Part shown: piece by piece, positions 457-61,427 of the stretch
Layout of the letters: each line of letters starts with the position of its first letter
Numbering within the stretch: the first letter of the stretch is position 1
NCBI GenBank assembly: GCA_009781635.1
Contig: WQXU01000010.1
Location: forward strand, 42,707-106,706
Direction: 5' to 3'
Source of the DNA: Treponema sp.
Lineage (GTDB): Bacteria > Spirochaetota > Spirochaetia > Treponematales > Breznakiellaceae
Length of the DNA: 64,000 nt
Position numbers and translations under genes: made by a program
Notes under the pieces: generated by a model
Database searches by the model: none
The model's input: only the letters and a program-made list of their open reading frames with translations
What the model was told of the DNA's origin: nothing

Positions 457-461
457 AGTTT

Positions 462-520
462 CTAAAAAATCAACATCCATGTTGATTTTTTAGATCGAAG
501 TTTTGCCTCGGCAAAACTTC
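462..520. repeat. Two adjacent perfect palindromes: 15-bp arms (462-476/479-493, spacer cc) and 11-bp arms (497-507/510-520, spacer tc)
   Basis: ctaaaaaatcaacat-cc-atgttgattttttag and gaagttttgcc-tc-ggcaaaacttc read directly. Confidence 0.9.
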
Positions 521-774
521 ATTTAGGCATAAATAACATCGGCATCCATGCCGCCCGGCGTAATGACCATACCGGAGGGAGCGCGGTTGGGCATGGAGCG
601 AGTGCGAGCCGCAGGCCACGCCTCGTATTACAAGTAATTTATGTCTCTTACTTCCAAAACTATCAGGTTAGTGCGAGCTCCTGTATGGTTTGTAAATTGA
701 GCCCTGTTATTTTTTGTATAAACTCATATGTCGAGCCTTCTGCCTACGCATCATTATTGGGCGTCTCCGAGCTT

Positions 775-36099: not shown

Positions 36100-37311
36100 A
36101 TGCAAAAGAGCGACAATGAAGTCGAAACGAATGCAGATCTTTTGCAGGAAAGCCCGCAAGGGGCTGATCAGACTAATCAGTTTGATCAATCTGATCAATT
36201 AGATCAATCTGATCAGGCAGCATTAAAAAAAGTTAAAATAAAAAAAGTCATTGGCCATGAGGCAAGAACGAACCGCTATGGTTATTTATTTGTTTTGCCT
36301 TTTCTAATTGTTTTTTCTATTTTTAATCTTTGGCCTACCCTTTATACATTCATGCTCGGATTTACCAATTTACGCGGTTTAACATCTGAATTTGAATTTG
36401 TCTCTGTCTGTTCGCTTTGTGAAGGCGCCGGTTCCAGAGTTGTATGGGGATGGGATTTTCCGTTGAGATGTCATGAATGTAATTCAACCGGCAAGATAGT
36501 GCATTTTTTTGCTAATTATAATCGATTAATTAATGATACATTTTTTTGGGGCGCTCTTGGAAATACATTTATTATTTGGGGTTTAAACTTTATACCTCAG
36601 TTGGGAATAGCTTTAGTTCTTGCAATCTGGCTTTCAGATTCAAGATTAAATTTAACAGGTAAGGGTTTATTCAGAGCTGTTATTTATATGCCGAACCTTC
36701 TTACCGCAGCGTCTGTAGCTTTGCTTTTCCGCAGTATTTTTGGTTTTAATGGCCACGTTAACGCGCCTGCAAATCAGTTTCTGCGTATTCTGGGCATTTA
36801 TTACAACAACGAGATACAGGGAATCGCTCAGGACGCATTTAATTTCTTTCGCAGTGTTCCGTTCTCACGAAGCCTTGTAGCGTTTATTCAATGGTGGATG
36901 TGGTACGGTCATACATTAATTATGCTGATGGCAGGTATTACAAGTATTCCCGTTTCATTATATGAATCAGCCACAGTAGACGGCGCAAGCAGCCGCCAGA
37001 CAGCATGGTATATTACATTGCCGCTTTTGCGCCCTATGATGCTTTACATTCTTGTTACTTCGATGATTGGCGGTATGCAGATGTTTGATATTCCATTCCT
37101 GCTTACCGGTATGCGGGGAGAGCCCGCTTTCAGTATAAGAACAACAGTTGTTTATCAGTTCAATGTATCGTTTATGGGACGCAGCGATTATGCGTACGGC
37201 GCTGCTGTTTCTCTGGGAATATTTATGGTCACCATTGTTCTTGCCCTGCTGATATTCTTCTTCCTGCAGGATCGCAGTGAGCTTAAAAAGAATAAAGGAG
37301 GTAAGGCATGA
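36100..37311 (+). CDS. Sugar ABC transporter permease (MalF-like) with CxxC...CxxC insertion in first periplasmic loop
   Basis: FLIVFSIFNLWPTLYTFMLGF; EAA-loop YESATVDGASSRQTAWYITLPLLRPMM; insertion VCSLCEGAGSRVVWGWDFPLRCHECNSTGKIV. Confidence 0.92.
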   Translation: MQKSDNEVETNADLLQESPQGADQTNQFDQSDQLDQSDQAALKKVKIKKVIGHEARTNRYGYLFVLPFLIVFSIFNLWPTLYTFMLGFTNLRGLTSEFEFVSVCSLCEGAGSRVVWGWDFPLRCHECNSTGKIVHFFANYNRLINDTFFWGALGNTFIIWGLNFIPQLGIALVLAIWLSDSRLNLTGKGLFRAVIYMPNLLTAASVALLFRSIFGFNGHVNAPANQFLRILGIYYNNEIQGIAQDAFNFFRSVPFSRSLVAFIQWWMWYGHTLIMLMAGITSIPVSLYESATVDGASSRQTAWYITLPLLRPMMLYILVTSMIGGMQMFDIPFLLTGMRGEPAFSIRTTVVYQFNVSFMGRSDYAYGAAVSLGIFMVTIVLALLIFFFLQDRSELKKNKGGKA

Positions 37312-38519
37312 CAATGGGAATAGGCAGAAGCGATACACCGGTAAAAAGATACTTTATTCATGCATTTATGATTTTCCTTGCACTTCTTGCAATTGTGCCA
37401 ATTTATGTTTTATTAATTAATTCTACCCGTACAACAGAGCAGATAAATACAGGTCTTTCCATAATTCCAGGCAGCGGCGCTTTCTGGTCATCAACGGTAG
37501 TAATAACCGCTGACTGGGGATTTACTGATGACGGCGAGGAATTAGAGCATGATCCGGATGCTAACCTGCTTGCAACAGAGGGGACAGTAAGGTTTTTAGA
37601 CTTAATAATGAACGCAAGTAATGCAAATTTAAGAGAAGTTGTTAATAGTAAAACCGGACAAACGGAATTACATGTGTCCAAGGCCTTAACCGATTCAAGG
37701 TCGCCGCGTATTGTCGTGGTTGATGATGAGGGCGACAGACTTGGTATTTTCTTCCTTTCTGACAGATCAATTCTCTATGTAAGAGACGGTCAAAAAATAG
37801 TGAAGGGAGCGAATCTTGCAAGAGTAGTTACTCCGCCTAACGTTCTTCATAACTGGCGCGCGTTAACCGGACGCGGCTTCCATATCTGGCAGGGTTTCAG
37901 AAACAGCGCCTTTATCGCCATTTGCGCTACATTGTTAAGCGTATATTTTTCTGCATTGACAGCTTACGGGCTGCATGTTTACAGGTTCAGGGGCAGAATG
38001 GCTATTTGGGCAATTATTCTTATAATCATGATGCTGCCGGGTTCTCTTACATTTATTGGTTTTTATCAGTTAATGGCGCAGTGGCATCTGACAGATACAT
38101 ATATTCCGTTAATAATACCGGGAATAGCTGCCGCTGCAACGGTCTTGTTCATAAGGCAGTATATGATGTCGGTTCTTTCCTTTGAACTGATTGATGCCGC
38201 GCGCATAGACGGCGCCGGAGAATATCGTATTTTTAATACTATTATTCTGCCTGTAACGATTCCGGCTCTTGCAGCCCAGTGTATTTTTACCTTTGTAGGC
38301 TCATGGAATAACTTCCTTACGCCGTTTATTTTGATTTCATCGCGGGATAAATACACGCTGCCAATGCTGATTCAGGCCTTACGGGGCGATATTTACCGCA
38401 CCGAGTTTGGCGGAATTTATCTTGGTATTTCAATTTCATTAATACCGATTCTTATTTTCTACGGCTTTATGTCCCGGTTTATAATTTCCGGTCTTACAAT
38501 GGGCGGTATTAAAGAGTAA
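37308..38519 (+). CDS. Sugar ABC transporter permease (MalG-like) with large periplasmic-loop insertion
   Basis: FELIDAARIDGAGEYRIFNTIILPVTIPAL EAA loop; insertion approx. GSGAFWSSTVV...VTPPNVLHNW. Confidence 0.92.
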   Translation: MTMGIGRSDTPVKRYFIHAFMIFLALLAIVPIYVLLINSTRTTEQINTGLSIIPGSGAFWSSTVVITADWGFTDDGEELEHDPDANLLATEGTVRFLDLIMNASNANLREVVNSKTGQTELHVSKALTDSRSPRIVVVDDEGDRLGIFFLSDRSILYVRDGQKIVKGANLARVVTPPNVLHNWRALTGRGFHIWQGFRNSAFIAICATLLSVYFSALTAYGLHVYRFRGRMAIWAIILIIMMLPGSLTFIGFYQLMAQWHLTDTYIPLIIPGIAAAATVLFIRQYMMSVLSFELIDAARIDGAGEYRIFNTIILPVTIPALAAQCIFTFVGSWNNFLTPFILISSRDKYTLPMLIQALRGDIYRTEFGGIYLGISISLIPILIFYGFMSRFIISGLTMGGIKE

Positions 38520-38562
38520 TTGAATTGTAAGCGGGTTGTTCAAAAACAGATGTTTTTGGACA

Positions 38563-38648
38563 GCTCAATTTTAGCTTTTCATGGAAAAGAGGCAAGCCTC
38601 CTTAGTTTTTGGTTTTTATTAAATGACCAATTACGCGGGAGGCTTCTT
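38563..38648 (-). pseudogene. Remnant copy of the 3' end of the recQ-like gene
   Basis: catggaaaagaggcaagcctccttag-tttttggtttttattaaatgaccaattacgcgggaggcttctt matches 42542-42611 with one indel; reverse strand reads EASRVIGHLIKTK then a frameshift. Confidence 0.85.
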
Positions 38649-38775
38649 TTTTATACATATTATGGAATAAAAATGTTGTTTTTTCGGTATAAATAGATTT
38701 TTAGTAATATTTTTTATTTGCTATTTAACCATAGTATGGTATCATTTAATAAAGACAATTCATTAGGAGGAAAAA

Positions 38776-40440
38776 ATGAAGAAAAAGTTAAACACTGTTA
38801 TTATTTTTGCGGTGTTATGCTTTATGGTCACAGCCTTTTTTACAGGTTGCCAGAATGAAAGGGCTCGCGGCGGTGATTTCTACCCGATAGAAATTTCGAT
38901 ATTCCATGAGACAGCGGATGCCCCCCGGCCTACAGCCGATAATCCCATTGCTATGTATTTAAGTGATAACCTGAATGTAACTTTCTCGTGGGATCTTCTT
39001 GTAGGCGATATCGCTCAAAGACGCGGTGTTATGATAGCTTCCGGCGATTATCCTGATCTTCTTGAAATAAGGGGAAATGAATGGATAGACGCAGGCGCTT
39101 TAATACCGTTACAGGATCTTATTGAACGGCACGGTCCCAACATTAAAAAACACTATGCTGAACATTGGGATAAAATGAAGTCTGCAGACGGCAATATTTA
39201 CTACCTTATCAATTTCGGTGTAATCCATGGTCTTGATCATACTCCCGATTATAACCAGGCTGCTTTCTGGATTCAAAAAGATATTTTAAAGTGGGCCAAT
39301 TATCCTGTAGTCAAAACTGTTGATCAGTATTTTGATTTAATCGAAAGATATTACAGAGCAAACCCGACAATTAATGGCCAGCCTGCAATTCCTTTTACAG
39401 CTCTTACCCACGACTGGAGAGCGTTTGAACTTTGGAATCCGCCTAACTTCCTTGCGGGTAACCCCAACGAAGGCAACGGTATGGTAAACGCTGCTAACAA
39501 CTACGAATACAAAACATTCTTTACAATGGATGTAAGCAGAAGATGGTTCCAGAAATTTAATGAGATGAATGCCAGAGGTCTTGTAGACAGAGCAGGCTTT
39601 ACCGATAACTACGATCAGTATTCTGCAAAAATCGCTGCAGGCCGTGTATTAGGTCAGAGCGTTCAGGGCTGGCAGTTTATGTACTCGGCTGATGCTGCAA
39701 ACCGCGACAGGGGTCAGAACAACCGCACTATGGCTCCGCTTCCAATCGTATTCGATGAAAGCATCACACCGCGGTACCGCAATTTACCTATTCCTAACCT
39801 TCTTCGCGGCGTTGGAATCAGCGTAAGCGCAAAAGATCCTGTTAGAATTATTCGTTTCTTCAATCAATTACTCGAAGAAGATGTACAGCGCACCATTCAT
39901 TGGGGTATTGAAGGACAGCACTGGCAGAAAGATGCACAGGGAGTTCCATACCGTACACAGCAGCAGCGCGATAACTGGCGGAATGATAACTGGCAGACAC
40001 AAAACCGTTTAAGGCTTTTGGATGCTGTAACTCCGAAGTTACAAGGTTCTTTCTCTGATGGTTATCCTGCCGACCTTAGCCATTTCTTCCCGGAACGCGA
40101 AGCAACTTTACTTCCTGAAGACAGGGAACTGTTACTCGCTTATGGCGTAACAAACTACAACGAATTGATGGATCCGAATCCTCCGCAAAATAATCCCTGG
40201 TTCCCAACCTGGAGTATGCCGACTCCTCCAGACGGCTCGGATGCACAGATGGCATTAACGCGCATAGAACAGATCATGAAACAGCGTCTGCCTCAAATGG
40301 TTCTGGCGCCGCCTGCTGATTTTGACAGATTGTGGAATTCTTATGTGGCAGAAGTTAATGCTGCCGGCCTTGCAGCTTATGAAAGGTATATGCAAGAGCA
40401 GCTTAATTTACGCCTGAGAGAATGGGGTATTAGAAGATAG
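38776..40440 (+). CDS. Extracellular solute-binding lipoprotein (LplA-like family)
   Basis: FFTGCQNERARGG lipobox; ...PDLLEIRGNEWIDAGALIPLQDLIERHGPNIKKHY. Confidence 0.87.
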   Translation: MKKKLNTVIIFAVLCFMVTAFFTGCQNERARGGDFYPIEISIFHETADAPRPTADNPIAMYLSDNLNVTFSWDLLVGDIAQRRGVMIASGDYPDLLEIRGNEWIDAGALIPLQDLIERHGPNIKKHYAEHWDKMKSADGNIYYLINFGVIHGLDHTPDYNQAAFWIQKDILKWANYPVVKTVDQYFDLIERYYRANPTINGQPAIPFTALTHDWRAFELWNPPNFLAGNPNEGNGMVNAANNYEYKTFFTMDVSRRWFQKFNEMNARGLVDRAGFTDNYDQYSAKIAAGRVLGQSVQGWQFMYSADAANRDRGQNNRTMAPLPIVFDESITPRYRNLPIPNLLRGVGISVSAKDPVRIIRFFNQLLEEDVQRTIHWGIEGQHWQKDAQGVPYRTQQQRDNWRNDNWQTQNRLRLLDAVTPKLQGSFSDGYPADLSHFFPEREATLLPEDRELLLAYGVTNYNELMDPNPPQNNPWFPTWSMPTPPDGSDAQMALTRIEQIMKQRLPQMVLAPPADFDRLWNSYVAEVNAAGLAAYERYMQEQLNLRLREWGIRR

Positions 40441-40457
40441 TATTTAAGTTTGTTTAT

Positions 40458-40494
40458 AAACAGAGGCAGAGAGTTTTCTGCCTCTGTTTTTTTT
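40458..40494 (+). terminator. Intrinsic terminator/attenuator between binding protein and permease
   Basis: aaacagaggcaga-gagttt-tctgcctctgttt + T run. Confidence 0.88.
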
Positions 40495-40593
40495 CTTAAT
40501 TAAAACGCAGTTTTAAGGCAGCATGACGGGAAACTGAAAAGTAAATTGCAAAGCAATTTCAAATGTAAAACAATTGGCTAAAACAGGTATTAA

Positions 40594-41589
40594 ATGAATA
40601 CGCAAATGACTTTTTTAGTCTTATCCATATTAATCCTTATTATGGGAACATCAATAATTGGTTTTTACAGATTAAAGGATAAATTATTTTTTAAAAAAAT
40701 CAGCCGTCAAAAACAGCTCCTTTTTATGAGTCTTCCTATAATTATTTATATTCTGCTTTTTACCTATGTCCCTCTTTGGGGCTGGACGATGGCTTTTCAA
40801 AATTACCGGCCTGCAAGAAGTTTTTCCAATCAGGAATGGGCAGGGCTAAGGTGGTTTACGTTTTTATTTAATGACATGGTATTTCTTAGAACCATAAGAA
40901 ATACCGTGGCTATGAGTTTTATAAATACTACTTTAGGTTTTATCACAGCTATCGGACTTGCGCTTATTCTAAATGAAGTAAAAAAGATTTTATTTAAACG
41001 TACAATTCAAACAATTTCATATCTTCCGCACTTTTTATCCTGGGTTATTGTTACAGGTCTTGTGTCATCCATGCTTACTACAGATAACGGGGCGATTAAT
41101 AACGCTCTTATGGCGCTGGGTTTTATTAAGGAGCCGGTATTATGGCTTGCTGAGCCGAATTATTTCTGGGGAATTATCGGCGCTACTTATGTCTGGAAGG
41201 AAGTAGGCTGGAATACAATTATTTATCTTGCGGCAATTGCCGGAATAGATCCGAATTTATATGAAGCTGCAGAAATTGACGGCTGTAACAGATATCAAAA
41301 GATGTGGCGTATTACGCTTCCATGTATAAAACCTACTATAATTATTTTGCTTATTATGAGTATAGGACGCATTCTTGATGCCGGATTTGAAATGCAATAC
41401 CTGCTGCGAAACGGACTTGTAATGGATGTTTCGGACACAATAGATGTTTATGTGCTTATTTATGGCCTTAGCCGCAATAATTATTCGCTTGCAACCGCAG
41501 CCGGAATGTTTAAGAATGTTGTAAATATAACTTTGATATTTATCGCAAATGAGCTTGCAAAAAGAGCAGGCGAGGAGCGTTTAATATGA
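40594..41589 (+). CDS. ABC transporter permease (LplB-like)
   Basis: YEAAEIDGCNRYQKMWRITLPCIKPTIIILLIMSIG. Confidence 0.93.
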   Translation: MNTQMTFLVLSILILIMGTSIIGFYRLKDKLFFKKISRQKQLLFMSLPIIIYILLFTYVPLWGWTMAFQNYRPARSFSNQEWAGLRWFTFLFNDMVFLRTIRNTVAMSFINTTLGFITAIGLALILNEVKKILFKRTIQTISYLPHFLSWVIVTGLVSSMLTTDNGAINNALMALGFIKEPVLWLAEPNYFWGIIGATYVWKEVGWNTIIYLAAIAGIDPNLYEAAEIDGCNRYQKMWRITLPCIKPTIIILLIMSIGRILDAGFEMQYLLRNGLVMDVSDTIDVYVLIYGLSRNNYSLATAAGMFKNVVNITLIFIANELAKRAGEERLI

Positions 41590-42506
41590 AAATTAAACCT
41601 TATACCTTATCAAAAATAGAAAATATTGTTTTTCATGTGTTTAATTCTTCATTATTAATTCTGCTTGCCTTTATCACCCTTTATCCTTTCTGGAATACTA
41701 TAGCTGTATCTTTTAATGACGCAATGGACTCCATGCGGGGAGGCATTAATTTTTGGCCGAGACAATTTACCCTGTTTAACTACGAGGTTATATTCCAGAC
41801 AGGCGCAATTCCCAGAGCGTTTTTTATATCTGTTGCAAGGACTTTAATTAATCTGGTAACAAGCGTTTTCTTTACAGCGATGCTGGCTTTCGTTCTTTCC
41901 AGAAATGAGTTTATTCTGCGTAAACCTTTCACATTTATTATTATTCTTTCGATGTATATAAACGCAGGTCTTATCCCGACCTTTTTCCTTATTCGAAGCC
42001 TTAGAATGGTAAATTCATTTTTGGTATATGTTGTTCCTGGTGTTATAAACGCATTTAATTTTGTTGTAATGAGAACATATATGCGTAATATTCCTGAAAG
42101 TATTATTGAGTCAGCGCGTATTGACGGCTACGGGGATTTTTATATTTTCTTCCGCATTATTCTGCCCTTATGTCTTCCTGTTCTTGCTACAATCGGGCTT
42201 TTTGTTTCTGTAGGAGCGTGGAATTCCTGGTTTGATACTATGATTTACAATTCAGGCAGAGAGCATTTACATACATTGCAGTATAAACTGATGGAATATC
42301 TGCAATCAAGCCAAAATGCAGGACGAAGCGCAAGCGATGCAGGAGCTATGGGCTTAGCCGCTGATGCAGGAGCTTCAGGCATGGTAACGCCCATGAGTAT
42401 AAGAGCCGCAATTACCGTAATTGCAGCTGCGCCTATTCTTTTGATTTATCCGTTTATGCAGCGCTACTTTGTTGTAGGCTTGAATGTCGGCGGCGTAAAG
42501 GAATAA
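41586..42506 (+). CDS. ABC transporter permease (LplC/YtcP-like)
   Basis: ESARIDGYGDFYIFFRIILPLCLPVLATIGLFVSVGAWNSWFD. Confidence 0.93.
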   Translation: MKIKPYTLSKIENIVFHVFNSSLLILLAFITLYPFWNTIAVSFNDAMDSMRGGINFWPRQFTLFNYEVIFQTGAIPRAFFISVARTLINLVTSVFFTAMLAFVLSRNEFILRKPFTFIIILSMYINAGLIPTFFLIRSLRMVNSFLVYVVPGVINAFNFVVMRTYMRNIPESIIESARIDGYGDFYIFFRIILPLCLPVLATIGLFVSVGAWNSWFDTMIYNSGREHLHTLQYKLMEYLQSSQNAGRSASDAGAMGLAADAGASGMVTPMSIRAAITVIAAAPILLIYPFMQRYFVVGLNVGGVKE

Positions 42507-42519
42507 CAATTAGGAGAAA

Positions 42520-44037
42520 TTAAAGTGTAATTTTATCCTTCCATGGAAAAGAGGCAAGCCTCCTTAGCTTTTTGGTTTTTATTAAATGACCAATTACGCG
42601 GGAGGCTTCTTCTTGCGACCATCTATATGTTATGCAAGCGGCCAGAATCGATGCTGCCTGTGTTTGTGTAAAACGTTTTTTATTTTTACGGAAGAATTTT
42701 AAAACGGCTGCTTCTTCACGCAGATGATCCGCTGTTACGGTTTTATCCTGCGGACAGCAGATATCACAGCAGGCTTTTTCCGGTACTTCGCTTCCTGAAT
42801 CAAAATTTAAAAGATTAAGAAGAGAATGCCTTCTGCAGCCTGATGTATTTCTGGCGTAATCAAGCAGAACAGAAAGCCTGTCCCGCTCTGCACCGTTTTT
42901 TGCTCTTGCAAGAGCTGCTTCGTCATCCGGTCCCCATAGTAAAACGGCCTTTGACTGTTCTCCGTCACGCCCGGCTCTTCCGGATTCCTGCAAATATGCT
43001 TCAATCGACGGCGCGCAGTCTCTGTGTATGATTGTCCGTATATCGGATTTATCGATTCCCATCCCGTAGGCGCAAGTTGCGCATAACACTGCTTCTCTGT
43101 TATTTATAAACCACCTTTCTGTCAGTGTTTTTTCTTCTTTGCTTAATCCCGCATGATAGAACCGGATTTCATTGTGCCAGTAATGACCTATTTCATTAAG
43201 TTCATTCCTCAGATAGCGTGCCAGTTTTTCTGTACCAGGACGCGAGGAACAAAAGACAATTGCAGGCCGTTTGTTCATTGCCAGTAAATCCCGTACCGCA
43301 AGGTCGCGGTTAATGCAGCCATTTGCGGAATAGTATATATTGGGTCTGTCCGGATTACCCATAATTTGATTTGTTTCCTGTCCGTTAAAAATGTATTTTT
43401 TTATTTTTTCCAGTACAGGAGCGCTTGCAGTAGCGGTAAAAGCTGTAACAAGCGGCGGATTAATTAGATTGACTATAGCGCCTATTTCCAGATAAGCCGG
43501 GCGGAAACTTTCCCCCCATTCGCTTACACAATGCGCCTCGTCAATTACAACATGCATAATTTTTATTTTTTCCAGTCTCTCTTTCACCTGCTTTGTAAGC
43601 AGCACTTCCGGATTTGCAATTATAAATTTGCTTTGCCCGCTTTCAAGTTTCCGCCATATCTCATCCCGCGCTTCTTTGCTCTGTCCTCCTCTGATTATTA
43701 CAGGTGATAAATTTATTCCATTGGAAATTTCTGTCCGCGTTGTGATTTCTTCCAGCCGCCTTTGCTGATCCGCCATTAATGACAGTATGGGATAAATGAC
43801 AAGTGTAATACCTTCTATCATCATTGCCGGAAGCTGGAAGCAAAGGGACTTTCCCGCGCCTGTTGGAAGGATAACAATCTGTTTTCCCGGGATGTCCCTG
43901 TCTGACATCTGCTTCTCCGCAGCTTCCAGGATATTTGATATAACAAGCCTTTGATACGGAAAGAGGTATGAAAGCCCGAAATAATTTTTTAATGCTTCAT
44001 CAAGCGGATCGGGCCTTGTGTTAGTTGGATTATTCAT
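42520..44037 (-). CDS. recQ: RecQ-family ATP-dependent DNA helicase (short form)
   Basis: IVILPTGAGKSLCFQLPA, VIDEAHCVSEWGESFRPAYLEIG, CATCAYGMGIDKSDIRTIIH, YLQESGRAGRDGE. Confidence 0.92.
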   Translation of the reverse strand: MNNPTNTRPDPLDEALKNYFGLSYLFPYQRLVISNILEAAEKQMSDRDIPGKQIVILPTGAGKSLCFQLPAMMIEGITLVIYPILSLMADQQRRLEEITTRTEISNGINLSPVIIRGGQSKEARDEIWRKLESGQSKFIIANPEVLLTKQVKERLEKIKIMHVVIDEAHCVSEWGESFRPAYLEIGAIVNLINPPLVTAFTATASAPVLEKIKKYIFNGQETNQIMGNPDRPNIYYSANGCINRDLAVRDLLAMNKRPAIVFCSSRPGTEKLARYLRNELNEIGHYWHNEIRFYHAGLSKEEKTLTERWFINNREAVLCATCAYGMGIDKSDIRTIIHRDCAPSIEAYLQESGRAGRDGEQSKAVLLWGPDDEAALARAKNGAERDRLSVLLDYARNTSGCRRHSLLNLLNFDSGSEVPEKACCDICCPQDKTVTADHLREEAAVLKFFRKNKKRFTQTQAASILAACITYRWSQEEASRVIGHLIKTKKLRRLASFPWKDKITL

Positions 44038-44134: not shown

Positions 44135-44392
44135 CTACGCTTCTTCCAGACCAAGATCGTCGTTTGTGTCAGTTGAAGGCATATCATTATGGATTTCATG
44201 CAGGATCGCAGATTTAGGGGCTTTTTTCTTAAATATATTTACATTGCCGAATTTCATGGTTCGCGGTCTTCTGTATCTCCTGGATACATAAGATACTATG
44301 CTCAGATATATAATGATAACCAGTGTTACAACTATTACCTGCCAGGATGTGAGAACCTCTTTTATGACATCCATAAAGCTCATGTGCTGCAT
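44135..44392 (-). CDS. Small single-TM hypothetical protein
   Basis: MQHMSFMDVIKEVLTSWQVIVVTLVIIIYLSIVSYV...; start chosen to avoid tyrS overlap. Confidence 0.5.
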   Translation of the reverse strand: MQHMSFMDVIKEVLTSWQVIVVTLVIIIYLSIVSYVSRRYRRPRTMKFGNVNIFKKKAPKSAILHEIHNDMPSTDTNDDLGLEEA

Positions 44393-44462
44393 TTCTTTAA
44401 TTATCGGTAATAATCCGCAAAAAGTGACTGACACCTTTTTGTAAATTCTGTACAATCTACCC

Positions 44463-45704
44463 ATGAACTCTACTTTAGAAATCTTAAAAACCAGAGGCTT
44501 TTTTCAGCAATGCACTGACGCGGAAAGTCTGTCAAAACTAATGGATGAAGGTCCTGTCACTTTTTACGAAGGCACTGACCCTACCGGGGGAAGTCTGCAC
44601 ATAGGTCACATGGTTCCCTACTTTGCATTCCGCCACCTTAGAGACAATGGCCATAAGGGGATTGCGCTGCTTGGAGGCGGCACTGCCAGAATTGGAGATC
44701 CTTCCGGCAAGAGCGAAATTCGAAAGATGCTTACATACGAACAATTGGATGAAAATACCGAATCCATAAAAACCCAGCTTGATCGTTTTGTCGGTTTTGA
44801 CGGTAAAACTGCTTTTCCTGTAAATAATAAGGACTGGCTTGCTGATCTAAATTATATTGATTTTTTACGTGACATTGGAAAACATTTTTCTGTAAACCGC
44901 ATGCTTAGTTTTGAAGCCTACAAAATGAGGCTGGAAACAGGTCTGTCTTTTATCGAATTTAATTACCAGCTTTTGCAAAGCTTTGATTTTCTTGAACTGT
45001 ACCGCCGGCACGGATGCCGTCTGCAAATCGGCGGGGATGATCAATGGGGCAATATTGTCGCCGGCGTAGAACTTGTCCGCCGTGTTGAAGGCGCGGAAGT
45101 TTACGGCCTGACATTCCCTCTTGTAACAACGGCGGACGGTAAGAAAATGGGCAAAACCGAGAAAGGCGCGCTTTTTCTTGATCCCGCAAAAACAAGTCCT
45201 TATGATTTTTTCCAGTACTGGCGGAATGTGCAGGATCAGGATATTCACCGGTTTTTACTTATGTTTACCTTTTTGCCTGTTGATGAATGCAATGCCCTGT
45301 GCGGTTCGGAGAAAAATCCTAACGAAGCCAAAGAAAGGCTTGCGTGGGAAATAACAGCTCTTATCCACGGCAAAGATGAGGCGGACAGGGCCTTATCAGG
45401 CGCCAGGGCGGCCTTTGGTTCATCAGGGGACAAATCCGCCATGCCCAAAACAGAAATTGAACGTTCGCGTTTGGATGCCGGTTACAATATAGTGGATCTT
45501 TTCTTTGATACAGGATTACTGGCCAGCAAGAGCGAGGCTCGCCGCCTTGTCCAGCAGGGCGGGGCTTTTGTGTCTGCAGGCAGCGGTGAGCTTGCGGCAA
45601 TCAGCGATCCGTCTGCTTCTATTGGAGCTGACAGGCTTAATGCCGACGGTGAATTAATTTTAAGAGCGGGAAAGAAGAGATATTTACTGGTCTTGATCAA
45701 ATAG
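44463..45704 (+). CDS. tyrS: Tyrosyl-tRNA synthetase
   Basis: FYEGTDPTGGSLHIGHMVPYF, LQIGGDDQWGNI, GKKMGKTEKGALFLD. Confidence 0.96.
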   Translation: MNSTLEILKTRGFFQQCTDAESLSKLMDEGPVTFYEGTDPTGGSLHIGHMVPYFAFRHLRDNGHKGIALLGGGTARIGDPSGKSEIRKMLTYEQLDENTESIKTQLDRFVGFDGKTAFPVNNKDWLADLNYIDFLRDIGKHFSVNRMLSFEAYKMRLETGLSFIEFNYQLLQSFDFLELYRRHGCRLQIGGDDQWGNIVAGVELVRRVEGAEVYGLTFPLVTTADGKKMGKTEKGALFLDPAKTSPYDFFQYWRNVQDQDIHRFLLMFTFLPVDECNALCGSEKNPNEAKERLAWEITALIHGKDEADRALSGARAAFGSSGDKSAMPKTEIERSRLDAGYNIVDLFFDTGLLASKSEARRLVQQGGAFVSAGSGELAAISDPSASIGADRLNADGELILRAGKKRYLLVLIK

Positions 45705-53697: not shown

Positions 53698-53769
53698 CTT
53701 TTAAATATATTTCCGGCAAATTAATAATTGACAAATCAATTAAATAATGTATAAAATAAAACAAATAAA

Positions 53770-53875
53770 ACTGAGCAGGCGATAAACTTCTCTCTTAAAG
53801 AGAGACAGATTTATGGGGCCGGGCCGCCGTGTTGCGGCAACGGGTGAGTATTATACGCATCTGTGGGACGGTAAA
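53770..53875 (+). ncRNA. NiCo (czcD-motif) riboswitch aptamer
   Basis: actgagcaggc ... gggccgggccgcc..gcggcaac.ggtgagtattatacgcatctgtgggacggt matches recalled conserved elements of the NiCo class (ACUGAGCAGGC, GCCGGGC, GCGGCAAC, GAUUACACGC-CAUCUGUGGGACAGU); upstream of a CDF transporter. Confidence 0.85.
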
Positions 53876-60487: not shown

Positions 60488-61162
60488 TTACCCATGCATC
60501 ATATCAAATACAATTTGATTAATATCGTTACGAAATTCATCCCATGTAGGTTTTTTAGTCCAGGCAATTGTTTTAAATTCACTTTGGGGTATTCCTGTTA
60601 AAACATCAGAAATATAAGTTAATTCAAGCCCGGCTTCCTTTTGTCGTGCATCATTAATTGCCTGTGACCAATCCACTGACTCATGAAGAGCAATTTCTCT
60701 AATATCTGCAACATCTTTAGCTGCAAATCTAAAAACAGCAGATAATTTATTGGAAAGTATATTACAAATTGAATCTGTCCGGTAATACAAATCAGTTTTA
60801 GTAATTCCGCCAAAATGAACTGCAACATCATTTACAAAATCAAGCTTTAATAAAGCATCTGATTTACTCCAGCCTACTCTAAAAGTAGTAAATGTATTAT
60901 TACTGATAAAATCAACTACAGGATCCCAAAAAAAACCTTCTTCCTTTAACTTAAAAAATACTTCTTTTACCTGTTCTAAATAATCAGCGTCGTTATTTAC
61001 AAAGAAATCAAGATCATCAGAATAACGGTGATTATAATACGCTCTGCTTAACGCTGTACCACCTGTTAGAAAAAACCGGACGCCACATTTGCTTATAGTG
61101 TTCAGAACCCCATCTTGAAGGGGGTAAAGGTTCTCTTCGTAATACTGCGAGGGCAAAATCAA
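60488..61162 (-). CDS. Nucleotidyl transferase AbiEii/AbiGii toxin family protein
   Basis: FFLTGGTALSRAYYNHRYSDDLDFFVN. Confidence 0.88.
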   Translation of the reverse strand: MILPSQYYEENLYPLQDGVLNTISKCGVRFFLTGGTALSRAYYNHRYSDDLDFFVNNDADYLEQVKEVFFKLKEEGFFWDPVVDFISNNTFTTFRVGWSKSDALLKLDFVNDVAVHFGGITKTDLYYRTDSICNILSNKLSAVFRFAAKDVADIREIALHESVDWSQAINDARQKEAGLELTYISDVLTGIPQSEFKTIAWTKKPTWDEFRNDINQIVFDMMHG

Positions 61163-61427
61163 AATGATACCTCCTTTCTTTTGGCCAAATACGCTTTGCT
61201 ATTTCAGGTGTGTATAATTCTTTTATTGTTTCAACGCCCCAAAGAGCTGTAACATAGTGCCAGGGAAGCCGTTCCAGGGAGCGGACAAATAATTTATCGC
61301 GTGTAAATGCACCGGATGATTCGATGTTTCCTTCAATAACCGAAAGCATGTCCTCATGTGTATCCAGATAATCCCAATTTAGAGAACGCATAAGTTGTAA
61401 TTTTTCTTCATGAGTTAAATTCATCAT
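61032..61427 (-). CDS. AbiEii-partner (putative antitoxin-like, DUF6922-like) protein
   Basis: Position immediately upstream and overlapping AbiEii; LFVRSLERLPWHYVTALWGVETIKELYTPEIAKRIWPKERR. Confidence 0.6.
   Translation of the reverse strand: MMNLTHEEKLQLMRSLNWDYLDTHEDMLSVIEGNIESSGAFTRDKLFVRSLERLPWHYVTALWGVETIKELYTPEIAKRIWPKERRYHFDFALAVLRREPLPPSRWGSEHYKQMWRPVFSNRWYSVKQSVL

Follow-up and report, generated by a model that had tools for sequence, protein, structure and literature searches.

Two copies of the recQ 3' end bracket an ABC transporter operon in a Treponema genome: a possible scar of recQ displacement

Introduction

In the attL and attR sites of integrative elements, a direct repeat of the 3' end of a gene brackets a segment of the chromosome, and one of the two copies completes the gene. 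The locus described here, from a Treponema genome of 2.77 Mb (G000), resembles such elements in that a direct repeat of the recQ end brackets a segment with one copy completing the gene, but it shows neither an integrase nor recurrence, and its cargo is an ordinary transporter operon, read as one for sugar. A closer likeness may be to duplication-and-loss rearrangement (PMC5745709), in which a gene likewise shifts among its neighbours and a truncated remnant is found at the old position; our case differs in that it concerns a bacterial chromosome, that the duplicated intermediate is unseen, and that the second recQ could equally derive from recombination with a related strain. The repeat also carries a hairpin that recalls the intrinsic terminators between convergent genes, for example of Zymomonas mobilis (PMC7566282), which similarly lie near both gene ends and can stop transcription of one gene or of both. 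Here, in contrast, the whole hairpin lies inside the recQ coding sequence (codons EAS...LRRL), and the demands of coding break up its T tract (TTCTTCTT); the noncoding copy is the exception.

Throughout, positions are those of the window, meaning the whole 64,000-nucleotide stretch that was analysed, and L and R denote the left and right copies of the repeat. The named relatives are Treponema metagenome-assembled genomes (MAGs), whose termite-gut origin is our reading of the isolate names.

Results

Table 1. Features of the recQ locus, in window coordinates.
Feature	Coordinates	Strand	Remarks
P1a and P1b permeases (BPD_transp_1), preceding ABC operon	36100..38519	+	In relatives, adjoins recQ directly or overlaps it
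Separate intergenic hairpin	38533..38566	+	Between P1b stop and L; second candidate terminator
L copy, 85 nt	38567..38651	+	Noncoding, frameshifted recQ 3' end; from alignment and fold
L hairpin (predicted)	within 38567..38651	+	AAGCCTCC...GGAGGCTT then CTTTTTTAT
Degenerate recQ-upstream-type motif (promoter-like)	38655..38695	-	Orientation fits a recQ at L
P2 operon (SBP2, P2a, P2b)	38776..42506	+	Closest to G017 and G021
SBP2	38776-40440	+	P2 operon
P2a permease	40594-41589	+	P2 operon
P2b permease	41586-42506	+	P2 operon
P2b-recQ junction	42507..42528	+	Stretch ending GAAATTAAAG; G017 equivalent is P2b-TAGAAATTAAG-orf109
R copy	42529..42614	+	Functional recQ 3' coding end (recQ on minus); same predicted hairpin, 3' of P2 operon
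recQ-family helicase, 505 aa	42520..44037	-	TIGR00614 277 bits (cut-off 219.8); DEAD, Helicase_C
orf109, small membrane-protein-like ORF	44135..44464	-	Directly after P2 operon in G017 and G021

Local alignment of L with R revealed 4 substitutions and one 1-nt indel across 86 columns, and a 73-nt query from R, searched against the 2.77-Mb genome, recovered R itself (E = 3.7e-32) and L (E = 1.5e-28) with no third copy, the next match having E = 0.6. The similarity of the two copies is far beyond chance, and the direct repeat of the recQ 3' end around an ABC operon that the original prediction had described is real; its similarity extends to 38567, near the outer limit of 38563 given there, and the core given there falls short of the true edges by a few bases. 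As had also been proposed, the segment between the copies is exactly one operon, with SBP2, P2a and P2b as its only genes, and contains no recombinase or integrase. L is noncoding because its 1-nt gap breaks the recQ frame, such that a truncated, frameshifted recQ 3' stub adjoins P1b at one border of the segment and R completes recQ at the other. An Rfam search of the repeat returned no match.

Matches to the repeat with E <= 0.01 were present in 8 of the 59 other genomes searched. In seven of these (G010, G034, G033, G032, G008, G002, and G019) the repeat sits at the recQ 3' end, while the eighth (G004) holds a 20-nt identity only; G034 additionally has a second match of 18 nt. Because relatives hold a single copy at the recQ 3' end, and because the recQ C-terminus is conserved to its end across the genus, we take R to lie in the original gene and L to be a derived stub, in agreement with the direction of copying first suggested.

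Left of L lies the P1 operon (SBP1, P1a, and P1b), itself preceded by a GH3 glycosidase gene, and the SBP2 product is a putative solute-binding lipoprotein that had no family match. P1a (36100-37311) carries at residues ~105-130 a CSLC...CHEC four-cysteine zinc-ribbon-like insertion (CSLCEGAGSRVVWGWDFPLRCHEC) that is unusual in a BPD_transp_1 permease, and P1b, with 403 aa, is likewise long. Elsewhere in the window are a NiCo riboswitch (53761-53873, plus strand; Rfam RF02683, 63.6 bits), a TD-2 RNA (457-555, minus strand; RF03162, 63.9 bits) and, after a MazG-like gene, an AbiEii-like nucleotidyltransferase ORF with a small partner ORF, both assigned by eye (60488-61427, minus strand). In G014 and G015 the place of this last pair is taken by a phosphofructokinase-like gene and, adjoining it, an operon of P2 type that is more distantly related (P2a ~80%).

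Relatives in which the P1b permease (37308-38519 here) adjoins recQ with no operon between them, which the original prediction had proposed to look for, do exist: P1b is directly convergent with recQ, without P2, in 10 relatives (G019, G033, G034, G008, G010, G002, G032, G014, G036, and G005); G034 and G008 have a divergent type of P1 operon there. The stop regions of P1b and recQ overlap by 11 nt in six of the ten (G019, G033, G034, G008, G010, and G002). The closest P2 operons, in contrast, were found in G017 and G021 (SBP2 89%, P2a 92-95%, and P2b 91-92% amino acid identity; clade support 100/100), where the order is GH3 - recQ - SBP2-P2a-P2b - orf109 and P2 thus lies on the 5' side of recQ; for G021 this order was joined from two contigs overlapping by 123 identical bases. 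These two genomes have recQ-P2-orf109 without the P1 operon and P1b-recQ is seen in other genomes, with no single genome among the relatives examined holding P1b-recQ-P2-orf109 and none found that holds both recQ copies. The orf109 of G000 is 58% identical to that of G021, 51% to that of G017 and 39-49% to others, and the grouping has support of 87/91.

Other contents of the neighbourhood vary as well. Between GH3 and recQ, G034 (L054) and G008 (L058) have another ABC operon, 32-48% identical, with the same 11-nt recQ overlap and the same recQ hairpin. This slot is empty in G015, G007, G017, G021, and G003. Three tandem SBP1-type binding-protein genes lie between recQ and orf109 in G032 (L048:9449-13336).

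Evaluating the flanks of L further, an anchored alignment, extended leftward from clear homology until it reached the L edge, matched positions 38648-38703 of G000 to the G017 spacer between the recQ start and SBP2, with 2 of 400 dinucleotide shuffles as good. The same flank matched the G021 spacer more weakly (24 of 400 shuffles as good), and plain local alignment of the flank to the spacer was not significant. A promoter-like motif found upstream of recQ across the genus (CTATATATGGCGCG..TTTTGCTTTA) is absent from the present recQ 5' flank and recurs in degenerate form at 38655-38695 (PWM score 7.64 bits, reached by 21 of 127920 windows), a stretch that is probably a remnant of an old recQ 5' flank. 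A better match, the best in the window, lies at 1683-1723 (CATATATATGGCGCG...GCGCTTTAGTGAAA), and the motif seems to represent a promoter type widespread in the genus and not specific to recQ. At the other end of the operon, P2b and the stretch following it are continued by recQ in G000 and by orf109 in G017 (Table 1); part of the likeness between these junctions could be due to chance because the recQ stop itself supplies TTAAAG. The 98-nt spacer between recQ and orf109 gave no informative match.

Comparison of DNA identity between G000 and G017/G021 hints at lateral transfer of P2, because P2 (83-85%) exceeds groEL plus recA (81-83%), GH3 (77%), and recQ (71%). The species tree from groEL plus recA is weakly supported for the position of G000 relative to G017 and G021, and rpoB had no match in the G017 and G021 assemblies.

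Folding of the operon strand predicted the same long, G+C-rich hairpin for both copies, with an inner TTGGTT/GACCAA stem. The z-scores of L and R were -4.6 and -3.5, respectively, or -5.9 and -3.4 when the folded segments had different ends. The T run that follows is CTTTTTTAT in L and the weaker TTCTTCTT in R and relatives, and the T tract of L as a whole (TCTTTTTTAT) is longer than those of the coding copies, most of which have TTCTTCTT. The recQ hairpin is present in 8 genomes (G000, G032, G019, G033, G034, G008, G010, and G002), with that of G019, folded alone, at z = -1.9 and so not clearly beyond shuffles; its loop is long and branched, and a simple terminator scan had no entry for it. 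No intergenic terminator was found in the six genomes with overlapping P1b and recQ stops, whereas three genomes that lack the recQ hairpin (G005, G014, and G036) carry between the genes a 13-14-bp hairpin that runs into T's or a T-rich stretch. A hairpin also occurs in G032 at the place equivalent to 38533-38566 of G000. Other genomes, in which a neighbour that is not P1 overlaps recQ, have neither the recQ hairpin nor an intergenic one, so the association of hairpin and overlap is limited to one group and is no rule. Two base pairs are changed on both sides, a level that 44 of 500 shuffles reach, the stem core is invariant, and the hairpin could be kept by recQ coding alone. Judged from its predicted structure, the recQ hairpin is probably an intrinsic terminator of the convergent operon.

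Discussion

We consider it somewhat better than an even chance that the two copies record where the recQ 3' end formerly lay (L) and where it lies now (R), L being a displacement scar of recQ. The flank of L, the P2b junction and the kinship of orf109 together point to a former position of P2 between recQ and orf109 in G000 too, and the ancestor would have had the order P1 operon - recQ - P2 operon - orf109. A second recQ would then have been placed between P2b and orf109, either through tandem duplication of recQ-P2 or through recombination with a recQ-orf109 fragment from a related strain. The first recQ, having become redundant, would have lost everything from the vicinity of its start codon up to its last ~85 nt, leaving as stub L a hairpin able to terminate the convergent P1 operon, while the intact recQ end at R would now play the same terminator role for P2. 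L may have been retained for that role, an idea that the extra hairpin at 38533-38566 makes less convincing. We infer the order of these events, the copying mechanism and the terminator function from comparison of sequences; displacement calls for two or more events, homology in the flank to the right of L is weak, and the motif within it is general.

The main competitor, which we regard as possible but distinctly less probable, is that P2 was inserted directly from a G017-like donor into the P1b-recQ junction by homologous plus illegitimate recombination, with the 3'-terminal ~85 bp of recQ duplicated. A single event would give both copies, many relatives have the empty site, as this proposal of the original prediction anticipated, and the P2 DNA is closer to that of G017 and G021 than groEL plus recA, GH3 and recQ are, which suggests lateral transfer. 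The nearest possible donors, however, carry P2 on the 5' side of recQ and have no recQ 3' end beside P2b, and a region resembling a recQ promoter that begins the insert right at L would have to be a coincidence. Because the closest P2 lies on the other side of recQ and DNA resembling the old 5' flank lies right of L, displacement is favoured over insertion. Very little credence is left for site-specific integration, in which L and R would be attL and attR, the recQ 3' end attB, and the integrase would have come from elsewhere: the copies are co-oriented and one restores the 3' end of the gene, but the segment has no integrase, the genome has two copies only, the repeat was found around no further cargo in it or in the 59 relatives, and P2 operons elsewhere lack flanking repeats (none of >= 30 nt in the four other genomes sampled). 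We therefore reject an integrative element, and the genomic-island reading is not supported.

It is about as improbable that the arrangement was created during assembly, by joining of a metagenome-assembled genome through the 85-bp repeat. The repeat is about the size of a k-mer and G000 may be a MAG as its named relatives are; against this, there are five differences between the copies, orthologues of both flanks occur in other assemblies, and the recQ gene is whole. Least probable of all, and hardly to be entertained, is that L and R belong, independently of each other, to a dispersed family of terminators or repeats; the idea has some appeal in that two ABC operons each end in the repeat, which forms a strong hairpin on the operon strand. 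Such a family, which the original prediction had itself named as the finding that would speak against it, is largely refuted by the count of two copies in the genome, and relatives have the repeat only inside recQ codons.

A broader proposal, which we think rather unlikely, is that the recQ 3' end is a recurrent exchange slot for ABC transporter operons, because permeases ending in GG(V/I)KE-stop overlap the recQ stop and a candidate terminator is embedded in recQ codons. If it were true, operons would be swapped or added with recQ and its terminator restored each time, and a duplicate gene end would sometimes be left behind.

As a rearrangement scar, the locus is a modest finding. It indicates that a repeat resembling att sites can arise without a mobile element, which calls for caution in repeat-based detection of islands. 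The point that may be reused is that one group of termite-gut treponemes has a conserved, terminator-like hairpin in the 3' codons of recQ, where the convergent operon leaves no room for an intergenic terminator.
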